Of a stretch of DNA of 29,447 nucleotides, positions 2,507-27,619 are shown one piece after another. The first letter of the stretch is position 1, and every line of letters begins with the position of its first letter. Origin of the DNA: a virus; IMG/VR virus record IMGVR_UViG_3300037504_000284, positions 1 through 29,447 of that record; one strand, given 5' to 3'. Under the pieces are notes generated by a model. The model worked only from the letters and a program-made list of their open reading frames with translations, was not told the DNA's origin and searched no databases. Position numbers and translations under genes: made by a program.

Positions 2507-3966
2507 TCGTTTATCGGTTTACTTTGTCCATTATTTCTTTCTCTTTGTTGTTCTTCTTGCACTCGTCTTACTTCTTGTGCAACTTCATCATCCTCCATAT
2601 TTAGAATATCCTCTATCTGTTTACTATCAAGGCTCCAACCGTACTTCAAGAAAGCCTTGAACGGCAATATCTCTGGCAAGTACGGAGAACGTGCATAATA
2701 ATAAGCCGCTTCTGCTCTTACTCGTCCAACTTCTGCTTTTTCTTTTTGAGATGGAGCAAATAAATCTTCTTGTTCTATCAAATAATCTCCTGTATCCGGC
2801 CTTCTTATAACTCCATACTCCATTAATTTGTCTAAAAGTGGTCGTATAATTTTATCTTCACCAAATTCTTCTCTGCGTGTTTTAATTTCAGAAAGCCACT
2901 GCGTTCTATCTTCACTAGATGCAAGCTCTCCTCTCTCGGAGCCTACAAGTATTCTTTTCGGAATGCCGGTTACGGCAGAAATCATTTGTATTTGCACATC
3001 AACGTGTTCAGCCGGAGAGGCTATCTGTTGATCAAGTGGTTGTAAATCCACACCTCTTACTGCAAACACACGCCTTAAATTATGCTCGTACTTCTGAATT
3101 TCTTCTTTCATTTGCTCACGTTTCTCAGAAGTAAGATTGTAGTTCGGGTCTTCTTTTGCAACATAACCCGGTCTTGCACCTCTCCAGAACATCTCTGCAT
3201 CACCGCCTGTGAGTTTCTCCAAATCCATCAAACGATTATAAACGGATTCTAGCCTCGGCTTGCCATAAGTGTGAGAAGATAAAGCTCCGTCAATTACATG
3301 AATAACACGAGACGGATGAACTTCTATACTTCTGCTGCTTGTTTGCTCCGGTCCTTTAATTGTAATATTATACGATTTAGGCATCGAATAACGAGGTGAA
3401 GAAGTATCATTTTCCCATTCTTTTACCTCAGCACGATTTTCTCCATAAGCCATCACGTATTGTAATTTACGCATGCCTCTTTTTATCGGCTTTTTAAAAT
3501 CAGCCTCTTTCTTTACATCATCAAATCCAAGCAGAAGAACGCCGTATCGTCCTAGTCCGGTTAGTTTATCCAAACGAGAGAACCAGTTTTTAAGCCGGAG
3601 CCTCTTTTGTAGTTCTTCTACATCCTCTTCAAATCCTGTTTTCTCCTGTTTTTCTCCTGCCTCACGTATATTAATCTCACCACGCCAAGTTGCATTAACA
3701 GGCTTATCAATAATAGCCCGTGCAATATCCTGCCTGTGATACTTGGCAAGATAATCATTAAATTCAATCGTGTCAGGATAGCCAAGTGCAGCATAAATAT
3801 CACGATCACCACCGTACTGTTGTCCAAAACGAGCAGCAAGTTGTGAACGTTCTATCATTTCAGTTGGCAGAGTAGTATTAGTGACTTGCGAGTGTATTTT
3901 CACAAGCTGATTATCACTAATATTGTCAAGCCAACTTAATTTATTTGTATTTTCTTCTTCTGCCAT
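2503..3966 (-). CDS. Phage portal protein (DUF1073-like)
   Basis: A 487-residue protein. The portal is the dodecameric ring at one capsid vertex through which terminase pumps DNA. Residues about 80-150 (IARAIIDKPVNATWRG ... LKNWFSRLDKLTGLGRYGVL) match the usual portal opening, in which a 'double-helix then gly-arg-tyr-gly' segment leads into a beta strand (LLLGFDDV). Around residue 330-390 it has VTGIPKRILVGSERGELASS, followed by a long helix ending in IIRPLLDKLM. This is the characteristic core of DUF1073-type portals (the Pfam entry now named after Acb1-like proteins). The C-terminus is a charged helical tail. It lies downstream of both terminase genes, as expected, but behind a 237-base non-coding stretch. 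The start at 3966 follows an A-rich leader without a Shine-Dalgarno sequence. Confidence 0.88.
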   Translation of the reverse strand: MAEEENTNKLSWLDNISDNQLVKIHSQVTNTTLPTEMIERSQLAARFGQQYGGDRDIYAALGYPDTIEFNDYLAKYHRQDIARAIIDKPVNATWRGEINIREAGEKQEKTGFEEDVEELQKRLRLKNWFSRLDKLTGLGRYGVLLLGFDDVKKEADFKKPIKRGMRKLQYVMAYGENRAEVKEWENDTSSPRYSMPKSYNITIKGPEQTSSRSIEVHPSRVIHVIDGALSSHTYGKPRLESVYNRLMDLEKLTGGDAEMFWRGARPGYVAKEDPNYNLTSEKREQMKEEIQKYEHNLRRVFAVRGVDLQPLDQQIASPAEHVDVQIQMISAVTGIPKRILVGSERGELASSEDRTQWLSEIKTRREEFGEDKIIRPLLDKLMEYGVIRRPDTGDYLIEQEDLFAPSQKEKAEVGRVRAEAAYYYARSPYLPEILPFKAFLKYGWSLDSKQIEDILNMEDDEVAQEVRRVQEEQQRERNNGQSKPINE

Positions 3967-4203: not shown

Positions 4204-4401
4204 TTATTCTGTACCATACAACATTTCATCATCAATCTCGGAGATACTCTCGACAACATTTATCCACACAAGCCGATTAAGGCTATATGATTCATCCTGT
4301 ATAACAAGCAAACTCGTATAACCTTCTTTTGGCTGATAATCCATTATATCATCTGCTCTCACCTCGATTGTCTCGCCGGTATTTTTATCTGTTAAATACA
4401 T
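4204..4401 (-). CDS. Small unknown protein, beta-rich
   Basis: A 65-residue protein starting MYLTDKNTGETIEVRADDI. It looks like a small beta barrel, with strands around TSLLVIQDESY and VWINVVESI. It lies four bases downstream of the next leftward gene, and the structured non-coding gap follows its stop. No family is recognised. Confidence 0.6.
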   Translation of the reverse strand: MYLTDKNTGETIEVRADDIMDYQPKEGYTSLLVIQDESYSLNRLVWINVVESISEIDDEMLYGTE

Positions 4402-13348: not shown

Positions 13349-13558
13349 ATGAAAATACTACTGAAAATATTTACAACTTTAGGAGCAATATTTCTTTTTA
13401 TTGCGATAGCTACAACTTTCACTACTTTTGTTGAATATTTTAATGCTGAACCAGAACAAATAAAAACAGCAGAATTTGTTTGTTTAAGTTCATGGATATT
13501 AGGATCAGTATTTACAATAATTGCAATTAATATAGCACATAAAATAAATAAATTATGA
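13349..13558 (+). CDS. Small two-pass membrane protein
   Basis: A 69-residue protein with two hydrophobic segments: GAIFLFIAIATTFTTFV (about 12-28) and SWILGSVFTIIAINIA (about 48-63). Its stop overlaps the start of the sigma-factor gene by 4 bases. A membrane protein coupled to a sigma-like gene could be an anti-sigma factor, but it lacks a cytoplasmic domain of useful size, so this remains speculation. Confidence 0.55.
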   Translation: MKILLKIFTTLGAIFLFIAIATTFTTFVEYFNAEPEQIKTAEFVCLSSWILGSVFTIIAINIAHKINKL

Positions 13559-13995
13559 AACTAACTAAAACGCACCTCAAAGACATCTCGGCAATTGCTT
13601 ACAACTTCTACAAGACAACCGGAATAGACCGCAATGACTTGTATCAAGAAGCAGCAATTGGCTACATTAAAGCAGCAGAAAACTATAATAATCATTCTGA
13701 TGCTTCTTTTCTAACTTATGCTCATCGTTGTGCTGTTAACAATGTAATTGATTTTATCAGGCAAGAAAAAGAATTAAGACATTTACCGATTATAGAAAGA
13801 GATTATAAAACAATGCCTTCACTTACATTCATGCTTTATGATGCAATCGAGCATTTGAGAACTTATTATAAAACATCATTGAAGTTGTTTATGCAAGGAT
13901 ACACATATTATGAAATTGCTCAAATGCTTAATATAAAAGTATCCACTCTAAAACCATTGCTTCATAGAGCAAAAAAAGAATTGAAAAAAATTTGA
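13555..13995 (+). CDS. RNA polymerase sigma-70-like factor
   Basis: A 146-residue protein. Region 2 is visible: DLYQEAAIGYIKAAENYN, then SFLTYAHRCAVNNVIDFIRQ (about 28-75), the core-binding and -10-recognition helices of sigma-70 family members. The C-terminal 40 residues (LKLFMQGYTYYEIAQMLNI, KVSTLKPLLHRAKKELKKI) are the region 4 helix-turn-helix that binds the -35 element. Region 1 and a long region 3 are missing, as in ECF/minimal phage sigmas. A phage sigma would redirect host RNA polymerase to phage promoters. The phage-specific motif starts at its stop codon. It could instead be an HTH regulator derived from a sigma factor. Confidence 0.85.
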   Translation: MKLTKTHLKDISAIAYNFYKTTGIDRNDLYQEAAIGYIKAAENYNNHSDASFLTYAHRCAVNNVIDFIRQEKELRHLPIIERDYKTMPSLTFMLYDAIEHLRTYYKTSLKLFMQGYTYYEIAQMLNIKVSTLKPLLHRAKKELKKI

Positions 13996-14022
13996 AACTT
14001 TTTTAAAAAATTATCGTATAAC
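13994..14022 (+). promoter_or_regulatory. Phage promoter motif before the pentapeptide gene
   Basis: GAAACTTTTTT, 9 bases, TCGTATAAC. The GAAAC overlaps the sigma gene stop (TGA 13993-13995). It can also be read as TTGAAA-N19-TATAAC. One of four copies of the motif in the window. Confidence 0.55.
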
Positions 14023-14024
14023 TT

Positions 14025-14045
14025 ATAAAAACAATTGAATTATGA
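14025..14045 (+). repeat. 21-bp direct repeat at a start site, copy 1
   Basis: The 21 bases up to and including the ATG and first base of the next codon recur exactly at 14786-14806. The core is ACAATTGAATTATGA. The two copies bracket the pentapeptide-repeat gene. Confidence 0.65.
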
Positions 14046-14782
14046 AAACAATTAAATCAATTTTCGAACAAACTCTTTTTGAATCAAAAAATGCTCAAAC
14101 AGTTAAAGAGTTGTTAGAAGAAGCAGTCAAGCAAAATTCTGTCTTGAGAGGTGCTGACTTGACAAATTCTGACTTGAGAGGTGCTGACTTGACAAATTCT
14201 GACTTGACAAATTCTGACTTGAGAGGTGCTGGCTTGATAAATTCTGACTTGAGACATGCTGACTTGACAAATTCTGACTTGAGACATGCTGACTTGAGAC
14301 ATGCTGACTTGACAAATTCTGACTTGAGAGGTGCTGACTTGACAAATTCTGACTTGAGACATGCTGACTTGAGAGGTGCTGACTTGAGAGGTGCTGTCTT
14401 GAGAGGTGCTGACTTGAGAGGTGCTGTCTTGGAGGTAGACAAAATTAAACACCTATTTCAAATTGTGCCAGAAGAAGGATCATTCATAGCCTGGAAAAAA
14501 GGAGAAAATGATTACATCATTAAACTATTAATACCAGCAAATGCAAAAAGACACAATCACCTTGCGGGACGAAAATGTAGAGCTGAATTTGTTGATGTCC
14601 TCAATATCTTTGATAACAAAGGGAATGAGACTAATGAATGTCAAAATGGAACGAATGATAATAGAGTAACCTACAAAGTAGGAAAAAGAACTTATGCTGA
14701 CAGTTATGATCCTGATCCTCGTGTTAATTGTTCAAATGGTATTCATTTCTTTTTGACACGTAAAGAAGCAGAAGAATGGTAA
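14042..14782 (+). CDS. Pentapeptide-repeat protein with DUF5758-like C-terminus
   Basis: A 246-residue protein. Residues 34-129 are about 19 pentapeptides of the A(D/N)Lxx kind, drawn from three units (DLRGA, DLTNS, DLRHA). They predict a right-handed quadrilateral beta helix, the fold that mimics DNA in the gyrase-protecting MfpA/Qnr proteins. The C-terminal domain (about 140-246) contains GSFIAWKKGENDYIIKLLIP and ends in NCSNGIHFFLTRKEAEEW, a pattern I associate with DUF5758, which is often fused to pentapeptides in phages. The cellular role is unknown; DNA mimicry is an inference. It is bracketed by a 21-bp direct repeat and preceded by the TCGTATAAC promoter motif. Confidence 0.88.
   Translation: MKTIKSIFEQTLFESKNAQTVKELLEEAVKQNSVLRGADLTNSDLRGADLTNSDLTNSDLRGAGLINSDLRHADLTNSDLRHADLRHADLTNSDLRGADLTNSDLRHADLRGADLRGAVLRGADLRGAVLEVDKIKHLFQIVPEEGSFIAWKKGENDYIIKLLIPANAKRHNHLAGRKCRAEFVDVLNIFDNKGNETNECQNGTNDNRVTYKVGKRTYADSYDPDPRVNCSNGIHFFLTRKEAEEW
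14141..14425 (+). repeat. Array of 19 tandem 15-bp units inside the pentapeptide gene
   Basis: Units GACTTGAGAGGTGCT, GACTTGACAAATTCT and GACTTGAGACATGCT occur in mixed order, nearly identical at DNA level including third positions. The identity is far greater than protein selection requires and points to recent expansion by unequal exchange or slippage. Unit gain or loss keeps the reading frame. Confidence 0.9.
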
Positions 14783-15962: not shown

Positions 15963-16211
15963 ATGAAACCAGAAAATTCAGAGAAAGTAATTGAACTGCT
16001 TAACACGAAAGAAGATTTAAAGCAGTTGCAGAAAGAACTTTATGATTGTAATGGATATGATCTCGACAGTATTACAATAAAAAATACTGAAGACATTAAA
16101 CATAGTTTTGATTGTTTAACAATAGGCAATCTAAACAAAATTCACGCTTATCTGCTTGACATAGTAGAACAAGAAATAGAAGAAATTGATAAAGAACTAG
16201 AGAAATTATGA
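15963..16211 (+). CDS. Small coiled-coil protein, possible paralogue of the preceding gene
   Basis: An 82-residue protein with a first helix KVIELLNTKEDLKQLQKEL, a middle YDLDSITIKNTEDIKHSFD and a closing helix DIVEQEIEEIDKELEKL. The final helix matches the pattern of the preceding protein. It overlaps the next gene by 4 bases. No known family. Confidence 0.6.
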   Translation: MKPENSEKVIELLNTKEDLKQLQKELYDCNGYDLDSITIKNTEDIKHSFDCLTIGNLNKIHAYLLDIVEQEIEEIDKELEKL

Positions 16212-16552
16212 AAAAACTAATTTTAATTTCACTAATTGGATTGTTTTCAATAACAATCGCAAATGCACAGTATCCAACTAATGTAGAGAAAGATGTACGT
16301 GAAAAAGTACAACTGCTAATACAAAAAGATTTTACAGAGAAAATTCAACCTCAACTACACAAAGTGTATGTGAGAGAAAATGTGTGGAGACTTATAAACA
16401 TTGAAACAAAAAAGAAAATTACACTTGTTCTTGCAATGTATGTTAATATGCACACGGACCAGGATGTAGAAATCGTTAAAATCTACTCATGGACCAGCGG
16501 ACAGAAACTTGCAAGATATAATTCTTTTTCTCAATTCAAATTTTTTGATTGA
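16208..16552 (+). CDS. Exported small protein with a signal peptide
   Basis: A 114-residue protein. It starts with a classical signal peptide: MKKLILISLIGLFSITIANA, with cleavage likely after ANA (residue 20), giving a mature protein of about 94 residues that begins QYPTN. The mature part is basic/helical then beta-rich (LVLAMYVNMHTDQDVEIVKI, YSWTSGQKLA) with no lipobox. It would act in the periplasm or at the surface of the infected cell, perhaps in exclusion of other phages, but that is only an inference. It precedes the structured RNA at 16584 by 31 bases. Confidence 0.75.
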   Translation: MKKLILISLIGLFSITIANAQYPTNVEKDVREKVQLLIQKDFTEKIQPQLHKVYVRENVWRLINIETKKKITLVLAMYVNMHTDQDVEIVKIYSWTSGQKLARYNSFSQFKFFD

Positions 16553-16583: not shown

Positions 16584-16714
16584 TATTGCAGTATGAAAAT
16601 GGCCAGCAACATACAGAATAAAATTACTGTTTCTCATAGTTTCATAGGTTTAACAATAAGTGAAAGCCCGGATAGTTTTATGTTGCTGGCCGCAATACCT
16701 CTATCCGGGCTTTG
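16584..16714 (+). ncRNA. Interlocked A-B-A'-B' RNA upstream of the antirepressor fusion
   Basis: Two perfect 13-base complementarities are interleaved: A GGCCAGCAACATA (16601-16613) with A' TATGTTGCTGGCC (16679-16691), and B AAAGCCCGGATAG (16663-16675) with B' CTATCCGGGCTTT (16701-16713). TATTGC (16584-16589) can extend A with GCAATA (16692-16697). B lies inside the A-A' loop while B' lies outside, so the whole can be a pseudoknot, two mutually exclusive hairpins (B-B' followed by GTTTTG could act as a terminator), or an antisense segment (A,B) with a downstream target (A',B'). B' ends 29 bases before the ATG of the KilA-N fusion gene. Confidence 0.75.
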
Positions 16715-16724
16715 TTTTGTATAA
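16593..16724 (+). CDS. Possible 43-aa leader peptide across the structured RNA
   Basis: An ATG at 16593 opens 43 codons that run through both stem pairs, beginning MKMASNIQNK and ending in a hydrophobic SFMLLAAIPLSGLCFV, then TAA. A translated leader could choose between RNA folds, as in attenuation. There is no clear ribosome-binding site, and the frame may be accidental. Confidence 0.3.
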   Translation: MKMASNIQNKITVSHSFIGLTISESPDSFMLLAAIPLSGLCFV

Positions 16725-16742: not shown

Positions 16743-18410
16743 ATGGTAGGACATTCAGAATTAACACAGTATAAACAAGAAGATGTTAAGAAAAACGTAG
16801 AACAAGTAATACAACGTTTGTTCAGAATTTTCAAAGAACATGATCCTTATTTATCTTATAGCAGACTAACTTTTATTGACTGTACCGCAGGAGATTTAGA
16901 AACCGGAGGAGATATGAATTTAACTTCTCCCGGAATATTCTTAAATGAAATAATCAGACAAAGCAAAGAAATTGATGATATACCCACAACCTTGTTTCTG
17001 ATTGAAAAAAATAAAAAAGCATTTGAAAAACTAACAAAAAATTATAACAAATATTTTAAGAAAGAAATAAAAAATAACACAAATTGTAATGTTAAACTAA
17101 AAAATAAAAACTTCAAAGATGCCTTATGGAATTTAGGCAGTGTAAAATATAGGTACGGACTTGTATATGTTGATGCAAATGGATACTCTCATGAAGACTA
17201 TTCAGCAGCAATAGACTTTGTTAATAAAAATGAAAGAGTGGACTTACTTGCAAATATAAATTACGCAAGTATAGCACGAGCAAGAGGATTTGGACAGAAA
17301 AATCCTGATAGTGCTTACGAAGTATATAAAGATTTATATATGGAAGACATCATAGATTCAATTGACAAAGACATCAAATATATAAGAGATGGAAAACATC
17401 AAGCAAAAATAAAAAGAAGAGGTAATCAGTTTACAATGATATATGCTTCTAATTACAGAAATCATAATCAATTACCAGATAACTTTGTACCAGCTTATTC
17501 AGAAAAAGGACAAGAACTTATGGACAAATATAATTTTAAGAAAGACAACAAAGATTCTATTCAATCAACAGAAGAATCAACGCAACAAACTAACACGAAT
17601 ATCACTCCATTTCAATACGGAAACTCTAAAATAACATTCAAACAAAACAATGGAGTAGTAATGATCAATGCCACTGAAATGGCTAAACCGTTTGGAAAAA
17701 GACCTAATGATTGGTTACATTTACCTTCAACTCGTTCATTTTTAGAGACTTTGAGAAATACAAGATTTTCTGGTATTACTGAAAATCAACTAATTACAAC
17801 TTCAAGAGGAGGACCTGCCACTAAAAATGTTGCACCCGGAACTTGGATGCACGAAGATGTTGCATTAGAGTTTGCACGCTGGCTTTCTCCTCAGTTCGCA
17901 ATCTGGTGTAATGATAAGATAAAAGAATTGATGACTGAAGGACAAACTTCAATAAAGAACACAGACAACAGAACACTTGCAAAAATGAACATTGAACTGG
18001 CCAATCGTCTTTTGAAATCAGAAGATGAAAAAGATGAATTAAAAAAACAAAACAAAGAACTTGAAAATAAAGCTGAATACGCTAATAAAATTTCAAACAG
18101 CGAATCATTATACAAAATATCGGAAATTGCCATGAAAGACTTTAAAATTTCTGGACAAAAACTAAATAAAGAATTGCAGAAAGCAAGTGTTCAATACAAA
18201 CAAGGAAATACTTGGTATTTATACAGAGAACATTTAGGAAAAGGTTATACCAGTTCTGTTACTAAATCATATACAGACAACAAAACCGGAAACGTTAATA
18301 CTGCAATTCAAATGAGATGGACTGAAAAAGGACGACAGTTCATCCATGACCTAGTTAATAATGGACATATATCACTTAACGGACAACCTAAAAGAAAAAG
18401 AAGAAAATAA
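16743..18410 (+). CDS. TcmP-like (methyltransferase-fold) + KilA-N + KilAC fusion
   Basis: A 555-residue protein in one unbroken frame. Residues 1-260 resemble the three-Cys-motif partner protein TcmP: YSRLTFIDCTAG (44-50) in the place of the SAM-type first strand, LFLIEKNKKAFEKL (84-97), a VYVDANGYSHED segment (141-152, where relatives have D-P-x-G) and LLANINYASIARARGF. Residues 290-400 form a KilA-N domain (INATEMAKPFGKRPNDWLH; TWMHEDVALEFARWLSPQFA), a DNA-binding domain of phage regulators. Residues 405-447 form a coiled coil. Residues 455-540 match the KilAC antirepressor C-terminus (ISEIAMKDFKISGQKLNKEL; RWTEKGRQFIHDLV). A regulator or antirepressor is the likely role; the activity of the N-terminal part is unknown. 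No separate three-Cys partner gene is visible nearby. Confidence 0.82.
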   Translation: MVGHSELTQYKQEDVKKNVEQVIQRLFRIFKEHDPYLSYSRLTFIDCTAGDLETGGDMNLTSPGIFLNEIIRQSKEIDDIPTTLFLIEKNKKAFEKLTKNYNKYFKKEIKNNTNCNVKLKNKNFKDALWNLGSVKYRYGLVYVDANGYSHEDYSAAIDFVNKNERVDLLANINYASIARARGFGQKNPDSAYEVYKDLYMEDIIDSIDKDIKYIRDGKHQAKIKRRGNQFTMIYASNYRNHNQLPDNFVPAYSEKGQELMDKYNFKKDNKDSIQSTEESTQQTNTNITPFQYGNSKITFKQNNGVVMINATEMAKPFGKRPNDWLHLPSTRSFLETLRNTRFSGITENQLITTSRGGPATKNVAPGTWMHEDVALEFARWLSPQFAIWCNDKIKELMTEGQTSIKNTDNRTLAKMNIELANRLLKSEDEKDELKKQNKELENKAEYANKISNSESLYKISEIAMKDFKISGQKLNKELQKASVQYKQGNTWYLYREHLGKGYTSSVTKSYTDNKTGNVNTAIQMRWTEKGRQFIHDLVNNGHISLNGQPKRKRRK

Positions 18411-25619: not shown

Positions 25620-27059
25620 ATGGCAGACACAGGCATTGAACGCCGAATCATTATAGGATTAGTTGCATCTGATGAGTATATCGAGAGAATAAGAGACATT
25701 TTCGATCCAACATTTTTTGAATCTACTGCTGCACGCTATATAGCTCAATGGTGCATGGAGTATTTTGATAGATATGGTCAAGCTCCGGCTACTCAGAGTA
25801 ATATAGTAGGTATTTTTATAAAAAAGAAAAGAGAAGGCAAAATTAAACAACAGCTCGCTGATGAAATAGATGAGGATATAATGCCTTCTCTTAGCGATGA
25901 GTTTCTTAGAGAAGAGTTTAACGTAGATCAGCGTGTAGAAGAAACTCAACAATACGCATTGGAGAGGGTTGTGCAGCAAAAGATTGATCAAGGTCAAAGT
26001 TATCTCAAAACAGGTGAAATTGAGAAAGCGGCAGAACTCTTTGATGTAGATATAGATGCAAGTGATAAGGATATAGAAGAGTCAATCCAGTCTATTGAAC
26101 AAATTGAACAGGAGAAGCCGGAGAAGCCGAAAATGCTTATGGCCCCGTGGCTCCGGCAAGGAGAGACAACACTCTTGTATGCACAAGCCGGTGTTGGTAA
26201 GTCACTTATTGCAATATTAACTGCATATCTTCTTGGTCTTAAAGATTATGATAAAGATGAAGCTAAGATTGGCAATTGGGTTGTGAAGAACACTACAGGC
26301 ACGTTATATATTGATGGAGAGATGGGTAAAAGTGAGATGCTTGACCGGGTGAAAGGTTTCAGATGGGTTGGACAGCAGAGAAACGGTAAAGGCATTAGAA
26401 TACTTTCTTTGCCGGATTATCAAATTGAGCAAGAAAAACAATTTGATCTGTCTGAACGAGATCAGCAGCGTAAGATTATCAAGTGGCTGCAAGAGCATCC
26501 GAAGTATAAATTACTTGTCATTGATTCGGTTTCAACAGTTTTTGGATTGGATGATGAGAATAGTAATTCAGAGTGGTCACAAAAAATTAATCCATTTATT
26601 CGGGATTTAAGAGCTTTGGGTGTGGCGCATATAATTCAACATCATGCGGGTAAAAATGGTGAATTACGTGGAGCATCGGCTATGGATGCTATGGCGCATA
26701 ATAAAATCCGTTTGAAGGATCATGACAGTAAGATGCAAGGAGAGGCTTGGTTTTGGGTTGATAATCATGGCAAGCAACGTGCTGCCGGTAAAACTTTTCA
26801 ACGTTTTCAGATTAAATTTGTAAGCGAGAGAGGTAGAACGATTTGGTTTGAGCCGGAGCAAGATTACATCAGTAAAAAAGATAAACAAGCATTATTGCAG
26901 GATTTAAGTGAAGGTATTGAGATAGAAAAATTGGCAGAAGATTATGGGATAACAAAAGAGGAGGTTATGAATGTAAAATCTAACTTCAAAAGGCTATTCT
27001 TATTGAATGAAAATGACGAGATTACGGCAAGTGGGAGAGAATTTTTGAAGAATAAGTGA
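25620..27059 (+). CDS. Replicative helicase-like protein (DnaB-N + RecA-fold ATPase)
   Basis: A 479-residue protein. Residues 5-100 look like the DnaB N-terminal helical domain (RRIIIGLVASDEYIERIRDI ... FFESTAARYIAQWCMEYF). The ATPase (about 172-400) has YAQAGVGKS (Walker A, 187-195), a TLYIDGEMGK segment (229-237), LLVIDSVSTVFG (Walker B, 298-309) and IIQHHAGKNGELRGASAM (338-355), the AAA_25/RepA-like RecA fold. The C-terminus (about 425-479) is a small HTH (IEKLAEDYGITKEEVMNVKS). It is the likely fork helicase partnered by the primase at 14803, although the family also includes RepA-type plasmid helicases. Its stop overlaps a phage promoter motif. Confidence 0.87.
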   Translation: MADTGIERRIIIGLVASDEYIERIRDIFDPTFFESTAARYIAQWCMEYFDRYGQAPATQSNIVGIFIKKKREGKIKQQLADEIDEDIMPSLSDEFLREEFNVDQRVEETQQYALERVVQQKIDQGQSYLKTGEIEKAAELFDVDIDASDKDIEESIQSIEQIEQEKPEKPKMLMAPWLRQGETTLLYAQAGVGKSLIAILTAYLLGLKDYDKDEAKIGNWVVKNTTGTLYIDGEMGKSEMLDRVKGFRWVGQQRNGKGIRILSLPDYQIEQEKQFDLSERDQQRKIIKWLQEHPKYKLLVIDSVSTVFGLDDENSNSEWSQKINPFIRDLRALGVAHIIQHHAGKNGELRGASAMDAMAHNKIRLKDHDSKMQGEAWFWVDNHGKQRAAGKTFQRFQIKFVSERGRTIWFEPEQDYISKKDKQALLQDLSEGIEIEKLAEDYGITKEEVMNVKSNFKRLFLLNENDEITASGREFLKNK

Positions 27060-27086
27060 AACTTTTTTGAAATTTTGTCGTATAAC
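27058..27086 (+). promoter_or_regulatory. Phage promoter motif before a small RNA
   Basis: GAAACTTTTTT, 9 bases, TCGTATAAC. It begins inside the helicase stop codon (TGA 27057-27059), as the copy at 13994 begins inside the sigma stop. A TTTG 22 bases before AAATTTTG gives a weaker match to the host promoter form. Confidence 0.6.
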
Positions 27087-27087
27087 G

Positions 27088-27212
27088 TTATAGAGAAATT
27101 AAAAATGAGCCATGCAAGTCAGAAAGACCGGAGATGAATTATAAATTAAAATTAACTAATGTTGAATCTAACGTCCGTATCAATTGTTAGTGTTATTTCT
27201 CCGGTCTTTTTT
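27088..27212 (+). ncRNA. Candidate phage small RNA, about 125 nt, with own promoter and terminator
   Basis: Directly after the promoter motif lies a gene-free stretch closed by AAAGACCGGAGA (27123-27134) pairing over 12 perfect bases with TCTCCGGTCTTT (27198-27209), then a run of six T (27207-27212). Inside the loop, ACTAA/TTAGT (27155-27159 with 27187-27191) and TTGA/TCAA (27162-27165 with 27180-27183) form an inner stem. No good open reading frame is present. Promoter, stem and T-run together look like a free-standing RNA; alternatively it is a large terminator. Confidence 0.65.
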
Positions 27213-27223
27213 CTGAAATTTTC

Positions 27224-27263
27224 TTTGAGTTTTTGAAACTTTATTTTAATTTTGTCGTATAAC
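27224..27263 (+). promoter_or_regulatory. Promoter before the cupin gene
   Basis: TTTG (27224-27227), 19 bases, TAATTTTG (27247-27254) is an exact Bacteroidota promoter match. It overlaps GAAACTTTATT (27235-27245), 9 bases, TCGTATAAC (27255-27263), the phage motif. It lies only 11 bases before the ATG at 27275, so a short leader is expected. Confidence 0.65.
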
Positions 27264-27274
27264 ATAAATGAACT

Positions 27275-27619
27275 ATGAAAAGAGAACAGAAAATTTGGGG
27301 ACAAAGGTGGCTTATCCGATGTGATTCAACACACGCAGTAAGTTATCTTGAACTTGAAAAGAACGTACAGTGTAGTTGGCATCGACATGAAACTAAATAT
27401 AATTTATTCGTGGTTTTAGAAGGTGAGTTAATTTTGGAGATTGAAGAACTTGATAATATTAAAACAGTTACTTTGAATAAAGGAGAAGAATTTACTATCA
27501 AACCGGGACAATGGCATCTATTTCGATGCTTTTGTGAGAATACGAAAGTTATAGAAGAAATGTTCGTAGAATATAATGAATCAGATATTGAACGTCAAAA
27601 TAAAGGGAATAGGTTATGA
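27275..27619 (+). CDS. Small cupin-fold protein
   Basis: A 114-residue single-domain cupin. The metal-binding pattern is visible: CSWHRHETKYNLFVVLEGEL (His at about 35 and 37, with a following Glu near 56), GEEFTIKPGQWHLFRC (His at about 88). The layout resembles the mannose-6-phosphate isomerase type II/sugar-related cupins. In phages such proteins may modify a sugar or act as sensors; the substrate is unknown. It is led by the promoter pair at 27224-27263 and overlaps the next gene by 4 bases. Confidence 0.82.
   Translation: MKREQKIWGQRWLIRCDSTHAVSYLELEKNVQCSWHRHETKYNLFVVLEGELILEIEELDNIKTVTLNKGEEFTIKPGQWHLFRCFCENTKVIEEMFVEYNESDIERQNKGNRL

Follow-up and report, generated by a model that had tools for sequence, protein, structure and literature searches.

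The viral record analyzed here, 29,447 bases long with 34% G+C and referred to in its full length as the window, carries a unit at 27057-27212 that we read, with a probability of about one half, as a small-RNA gene that runs from its own promoter to its own terminator and belongs to a regulon governed by an ECF sigma factor of the phage itself. The transcription of this unit, its dependence on the sigma factor, and its function are what we infer from the arrangement described below. An orphan intergenic hairpin is in this way tied to a named regulator. A single sigma factor and at least three, probably five, promoters of nearly the same sequence, including one that would yield only a short RNA, may constitute a compact phage gene expression program.

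The genes of the window include those for a terminase, a portal protein, a primase, and a helicase. Among isolated phages, Croceibacter phage P2559Y has the closest terminase (34.5% identity); this match and the AT-rich start regions suggest that the host of the phage belongs to the Bacteroidota. The terminase relatives L003-L005 (52 to 54% identity) contained no match to the helicase or the sigma factor and no perfect long form of the ECF motif.

A phage sigma factor and its candidate promoters

The sole sigma factor gene found in the window lies at 13555-13995 (+) and encodes an ECF-type protein of 146 amino acids. It matched the Pfam domains Sigma70_r2 (E 3e-13, amino acids 5 to 72) and Sigma70_r4_2 (E 4e-11, amino acids 93 to 143), as well as the sigma70-ECF family TIGR02937, for which the score was 71.2 bits against a cutoff of 42.9. 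The protein consists of sigma-2 and sigma-4 domains only, with neither sigma-1.1 nor sigma-3, which is the domain composition of the ECF class, and its sigma-4 part weakly matched the SigW sigma-4 structure entry (E 0.009). ECF sigma factors bind the core RNA polymerase and use promoters with an AAC-type −35 element and a CGT-type −10 element. It is common, if not universal, for the gene of a cognate anti-sigma factor to lie beside that of the ECF sigma factor. A gene at 13349-13558 (+), which overlaps the start of the sigma factor gene by ATGA, encodes a 69-amino-acid protein with two hydrophobic stretches and no family match; it is possible that this protein is a membrane partner or an anti-sigma factor. 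The closest relative of the sigma factor in the phage collection was found in MT837064 (31% identity), and the 4.9 kb of MT837064 that was examined contained no promoter motif of the kind described next.

The 14 defined bases of the motif TGAAAC-N16-CGTATAAC occur without mismatch three times in the window, always on the plus strand and each time directly 5' of a gene or of the RNA unit. The first of these promoters, P1 (27057-27086), belongs to the RNA unit; its boxes are TGAAAC at 27057-27062 and CGTA at 27079-27082, and its TGA is the stop codon of the helicase gene. The second, P2 (27234-27263), serves the cupin gene, and the third copy (13993-14022) begins on the stop codon of the sigma factor gene. 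The gene directly 3' of this third copy, at 14042-14782 (+), encodes a pentapeptide-repeat protein fused to DUF5758. As the motif was derived from the two copies near the unit, the fair statistic is the occurrence of a third copy given those two, and about 0.0005 such copies would be expected in the window under base composition. A perfect copy was present in none of 1,000 shuffles of the window. A host sigma-70 promoter was considered for P1 and rejected: the TATAAC box would lie 19 nt from TTGAAA, and the TTG of TTGAAA is not retained at 27057.

The consensus for the Bacillus ECF sigma factor SigW is TGAAAC-N16/17-CGTAT (PMC2375139), and all three promoters of the window conform to the SigW-type pattern TGAAAC-N16/17-CGTA(T). 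The boxes and the spacing of the TGAAAC-N16-CGTAT promoters of Bacillus are identical to those found here (PMC2375139), whereas the copies in the window accompany a phage sigma factor gene in a virus that probably infects Bacteroidota, and each of them carries the longer CGTATAAC. Judged by its sequence, P1 is a promoter of the ECF (SigW) type, common to the sigma factor locus and the cupin gene, and this common motif would make the RNA unit part of the regulon. The class of the sigma factor, the adjacency of its gene to a promoter copy, and their co-occurrence suggest that it may be this protein which reads TGAAAC-N16-CGTATAAC.

The unit between the helicase and cupin genes

A first-pass annotation of this DNA had placed between the helicase and cupin genes a promoter, a perfect 12-bp closing stem, and a T6 run, and had given the next gene a promoter of its own. 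Each of these elements was recovered at its location, the promoter being an exact match to a motif whose ECF type had gone unmentioned and P2 being a repeat of that same motif. From the AAA/DnaB-like helicase gene (25620-27059) to the cupin gene (27275-27619, +; Pfam Cupin_2, E 5e-9), the sequence runs through P1, about 35 mostly unpaired bases, the 12-bp inverted repeat with its 63-base loop, the T6 run, and a 48-base cassette that includes P2. The arms of the stem are AAAGACCGGAGA (27123-27134, +) and TCTCCGGTCTTT (27198-27209, +), and three T's of the T6 run (27207-27212, +) lie inside it. The terminator-like stem follows P1 at a distance of no more than about 125 nt and the cupin gene is served by P2, which leaves P1 nothing long to transcribe. 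At the sequence level, the unit has both the promoter and the terminator of its own by which a small-RNA gene is defined.

The stem is unlikely to have arisen by chance. First-order Markov shuffles gave an expectation of 0.015 per window for inverted repeats, within 120 bases, that are perfect over 12 bp or more and include 6 or more G/C, and none of 200 shuffles contained such a repeat with a T-rich tail. A looser stem-plus-T search on both strands returned two matches against 0.08 expected per window, one being the stem of the RNA unit and the other lying on the minus strand within the helicase gene. The 12-bp stem followed directly by T6 has the form of an intrinsic terminator, a G+C-rich stem running into T's, with an atypical loop of 63 nt; this loop is far above the size of textbook intrinsic terminators and is the reason that a simple terminator scan missed the stem at 27123-27209.

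The predicted RNA, both of whose ends are estimates, spans 27089-27212 (+), or about 124 nt, and in the predicted fold it comprises an unpaired, A-rich 5' tail of 30 nt and a closed hairpin domain. The region 27119-27212 folded with a z score of −4.2, and 0 of 200 shuffles folded equally well; for the whole of 27090-27216 the z score was −2.65. The nested hairpin described in the first-pass annotation held in its outer part, the 12 pairs of the stem having probabilities of 0.87 to 1.0, but its inner part proved marginal: no inner pair exceeded a probability of 0.4, and the centroid structure was the outer stem alone. Rfam, tRNA, and tmRNA searches gave no match in the window, no Rfam score passing a family's gathering threshold and the hits for 27060-27274 being at chance level, and searches for homologues of the RNA found none. 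The exact stem pattern was matched three times on viral contigs, all of 49 to 72% G+C and with unrelated surroundings, and these matches were set aside as chance terminators.

The distance from the helicase stop codon to the stem is 64 nt and the cupin gene has a promoter to itself, as would be expected if the stem merely terminated the helicase operon and P1 were weak or incidental. P1, however, reproduces without mismatch a motif that also precedes two further genes of the window and two genes on related contigs, and we regard this explanation as very improbable. A different reading of P1 is offered by the bases it precedes. The absence of any credible gene from the roughly 125 bases, claimed earlier, agrees with the unit of about 124 nt but must be qualified by two putative tiny open reading frames: one of 10 codons, MSHASQKDRR (27105-27137, +), which ends inside the 5' stem arm, and one of 18 codons, MNYKLKLTNVESNVRINC (27134-27190, +), which overlaps it by ATGA. 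P1 might accordingly drive a micro-protein mRNA, or a leader, for one or both of these peptides, and a ribosome finishing the first frame would cover the 5' arm, by which termination could be made to depend on translation. The first ATG lies 22 nt 3' of CGTA, inside the 15 to 30 nt that separate the other four promoters from their gene starts. Frames this short are nevertheless expected by chance and these have no homologue, and with P2 in front of the cupin gene no leader is needed; we consider coding by the unit improbable. A free-standing short transcription unit, the layout proposed in the first-pass annotation, is still the best reading of a promoter, about 124 nt, a stem with a T-run, and a second promoter, with a cassette or insulator or the micro-ORFs as possible alternatives. 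Its suggestion of an antisense, titration, or decoy role gained no direct support: complementarity of the RNA to the phage contigs was not compelling anywhere, the 11-nt antisense matches being mostly A/T runs without pattern.

Promoter copies on other viral contigs

When 2.9 million viral contigs were searched for TGAAACTTT-N12-TCGTATAAC, five contained it, and on four of these the motif lies just 5' of a gene in the same direction. Two of the matching contigs, G004 (L011, 13.9 kb) and G005 (L012/L023, 21 kb), both come from metagenome 3300037504. Their promoter copies have the longer form CGTATAACATTATAG in common, and P1 carries CGTATAACGTTATAG. The copy on G004 precedes a gene, starting near 4380, for a small protein of unknown function, and that on G005 precedes a gene at 3730 whose product has a signal-peptide-like start. 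Tetranucleotide correlations among the window, G004, and G005 were 0.87 to 0.91, compared with 0.29 to 0.68 for eight other viral contigs tested. G004 encodes a DNA polymerase, a UvsX-like recombinase, and part of an SbcC-like exonuclease; G005 encodes tail proteins and part of an ATPase resembling the C-terminal half of an SbcC-like protein. Given this matching oligonucleotide composition and complementary gene content, the window, G004, and G005 probably derive from a single phage genome, about 65 kb long and carrying five ECF promoters. No match to the window's proteins was present on G004 or G005 and the ends of the contigs did not overlap, and it is possible that G004 and G005 come instead from a second, related phage. 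Searches with the helicase, the cupin, the sigma factor, and the G004 DNA polymerase retrieved no close relatives, the only helicase match (25%) being in a metagenome-assembled genome. The promoter motif can also be used as a marker to connect fragments of the window phage with one another.

The 48-bp cassette consisting of P2 and its upstream flank (27216-27263, +) is repeated exactly on G004 (L011 4304-4351), as a duplicated or mobile phage promoter would be. This copy, which includes sequence 5' of the −35 box, speaks for the main rival to a small-RNA gene, namely, a PeSL-like promoter-terminator-promoter cassette for module shuffling, which might be a gene slot that has been emptied. The promoters, being nearly identical, would then be recombination handles, the stem would isolate modules, and the RNA would be a by-product or what is left of a lost gene; an RNA body with neither a homologue nor strong inner structure is what one would expect. 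T4-like phages are described, as cited in PMC4503421, as shuffling modules through composite promoter-terminator motifs, and the PeSL of these phages, composite units of terminator and promoter repeated in the genome between genes, resemble the present arrangement. PeSL carry a host-like early promoter, in contrast to the ECF promoter found here, and the present stem-loop accompanies one of five promoter copies, with a promoter on both sides. In PeSL, stem-loop and promoter are repeated together; in our set the 48-nt promoter part is repeated and the stem-loop occurs once. P1 and P2, moreover, differ everywhere but in their boxes and a portion of the spacer, as selection on the promoter would explain better than a fresh duplication. 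We judge the shuffling cassette to be unlikely as an account of the unit.

The same ECF-type motif was also seen just 5' of genes on viral contigs L010 (10979-11008, −) and L014 (361-390, −), whose composition differs from that of the window. SigW-type promoters may thus be more widespread in phages. The layout could also be as we propose and its promoters be read by an ECF sigma factor of the host, by which the phage would tap the host stress response. This possibility concerns the reader of P1 only and is compatible with a small-RNA gene. In Bacillus the consensus is indeed that of a stress sigma factor of the host (PMC2375139), and no sigma factor gene was detected on the fragmentary records L010 and L014. 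Against it, the window has an ECF sigma factor gene of its own with a promoter copy on its stop codon, and a stricter 23-base form of the motif, narrower than the consensus, was absent from 84,980 bacterial and archaeal genomes. We think a host reader decidedly unlikely.

Relation to known regulons and a second structured element

We propose that the sigma factor gene is expressed along with the replication-side gene cluster and that its product would bring the host RNA polymerase to the TGAAAC-N16-CGTATAAC promoters; the motif, the gene, and their adjacency are observed, and binding is presumed from them. Transcription from P1 would start near 27089 and end at the 12-bp stem and U-run near 27212, giving the RNA of about 124 nt with its predicted open 5' tail and a closed 3' end that is probably stable. 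The stem would also insulate the cupin gene, which would restart from the near-identical P2. In the weakest step of this scheme, the RNA would most likely act in trans, pairing through its 5' tail or its loop as small RNAs under sigma-E control do, and the 30 unpaired bases of the modeled 5' tail are the best candidate pairing region.

Bacterial ECF sigma factors do drive small RNAs, examples being the sigma-E-dependent MicA and RybB. The unit resembles these in its predicted layout, a short RNA gene with a direct ECF promoter and a stem plus U-run at its end, and differs in being phage borne, no sequence relation being expected. By this analogy, a phage ECF sigma regulon with a dedicated trans-acting small RNA might be the phage counterpart, in a Bacteroidota host, of sigma-E with MicA and RybB, a suggestion that we put forward tentatively. 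If the RNA acts in trans, it would represent a phage version of sigma-controlled small-RNA regulation.

Phage ECF sigma factors with a few well-conserved phage promoters are described for phiEco32, 7-11, and other Kuravirus-like phages in PMC4331800 and PMC7881722, and the window resembles these regulons in both respects. The motif given there (of the TGTGATGTTATA type in 7-11) is without a classical −35 box, whereas that of the window is a classical two-box ECF promoter, and the available portions of these two papers mention no small-RNA member of such regulons. Phage small RNAs as such are already known (PMC12197685). As far as a brief literature search shows, what is new is the combination of a phage ECF sigma factor with a small RNA under a classical SigW-type promoter, in a phage whose host is probably one of the Bacteroidota.

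Elsewhere in the window, at 16595-16718 (+), another element with strong structure was observed, between an open reading frame at 16208-16552 and a gene at 16743-18410 (+). The latter encodes a 555-amino-acid protein whose C-terminal half carries KilA-N and ANT domains and whose N-terminal portion, about 290 amino acids long, had no match. Rfam matches for the element were far under threshold. It contains two perfect 13-bp inverted repeats (16601-16613/16679-16691 and 16663-16675/16701-16713), of a kind expected at 0.015 per window, which interlock as a pseudoknot; the second is followed by TGTTTTG, and a 43-codon open reading frame (16593) crosses the element.
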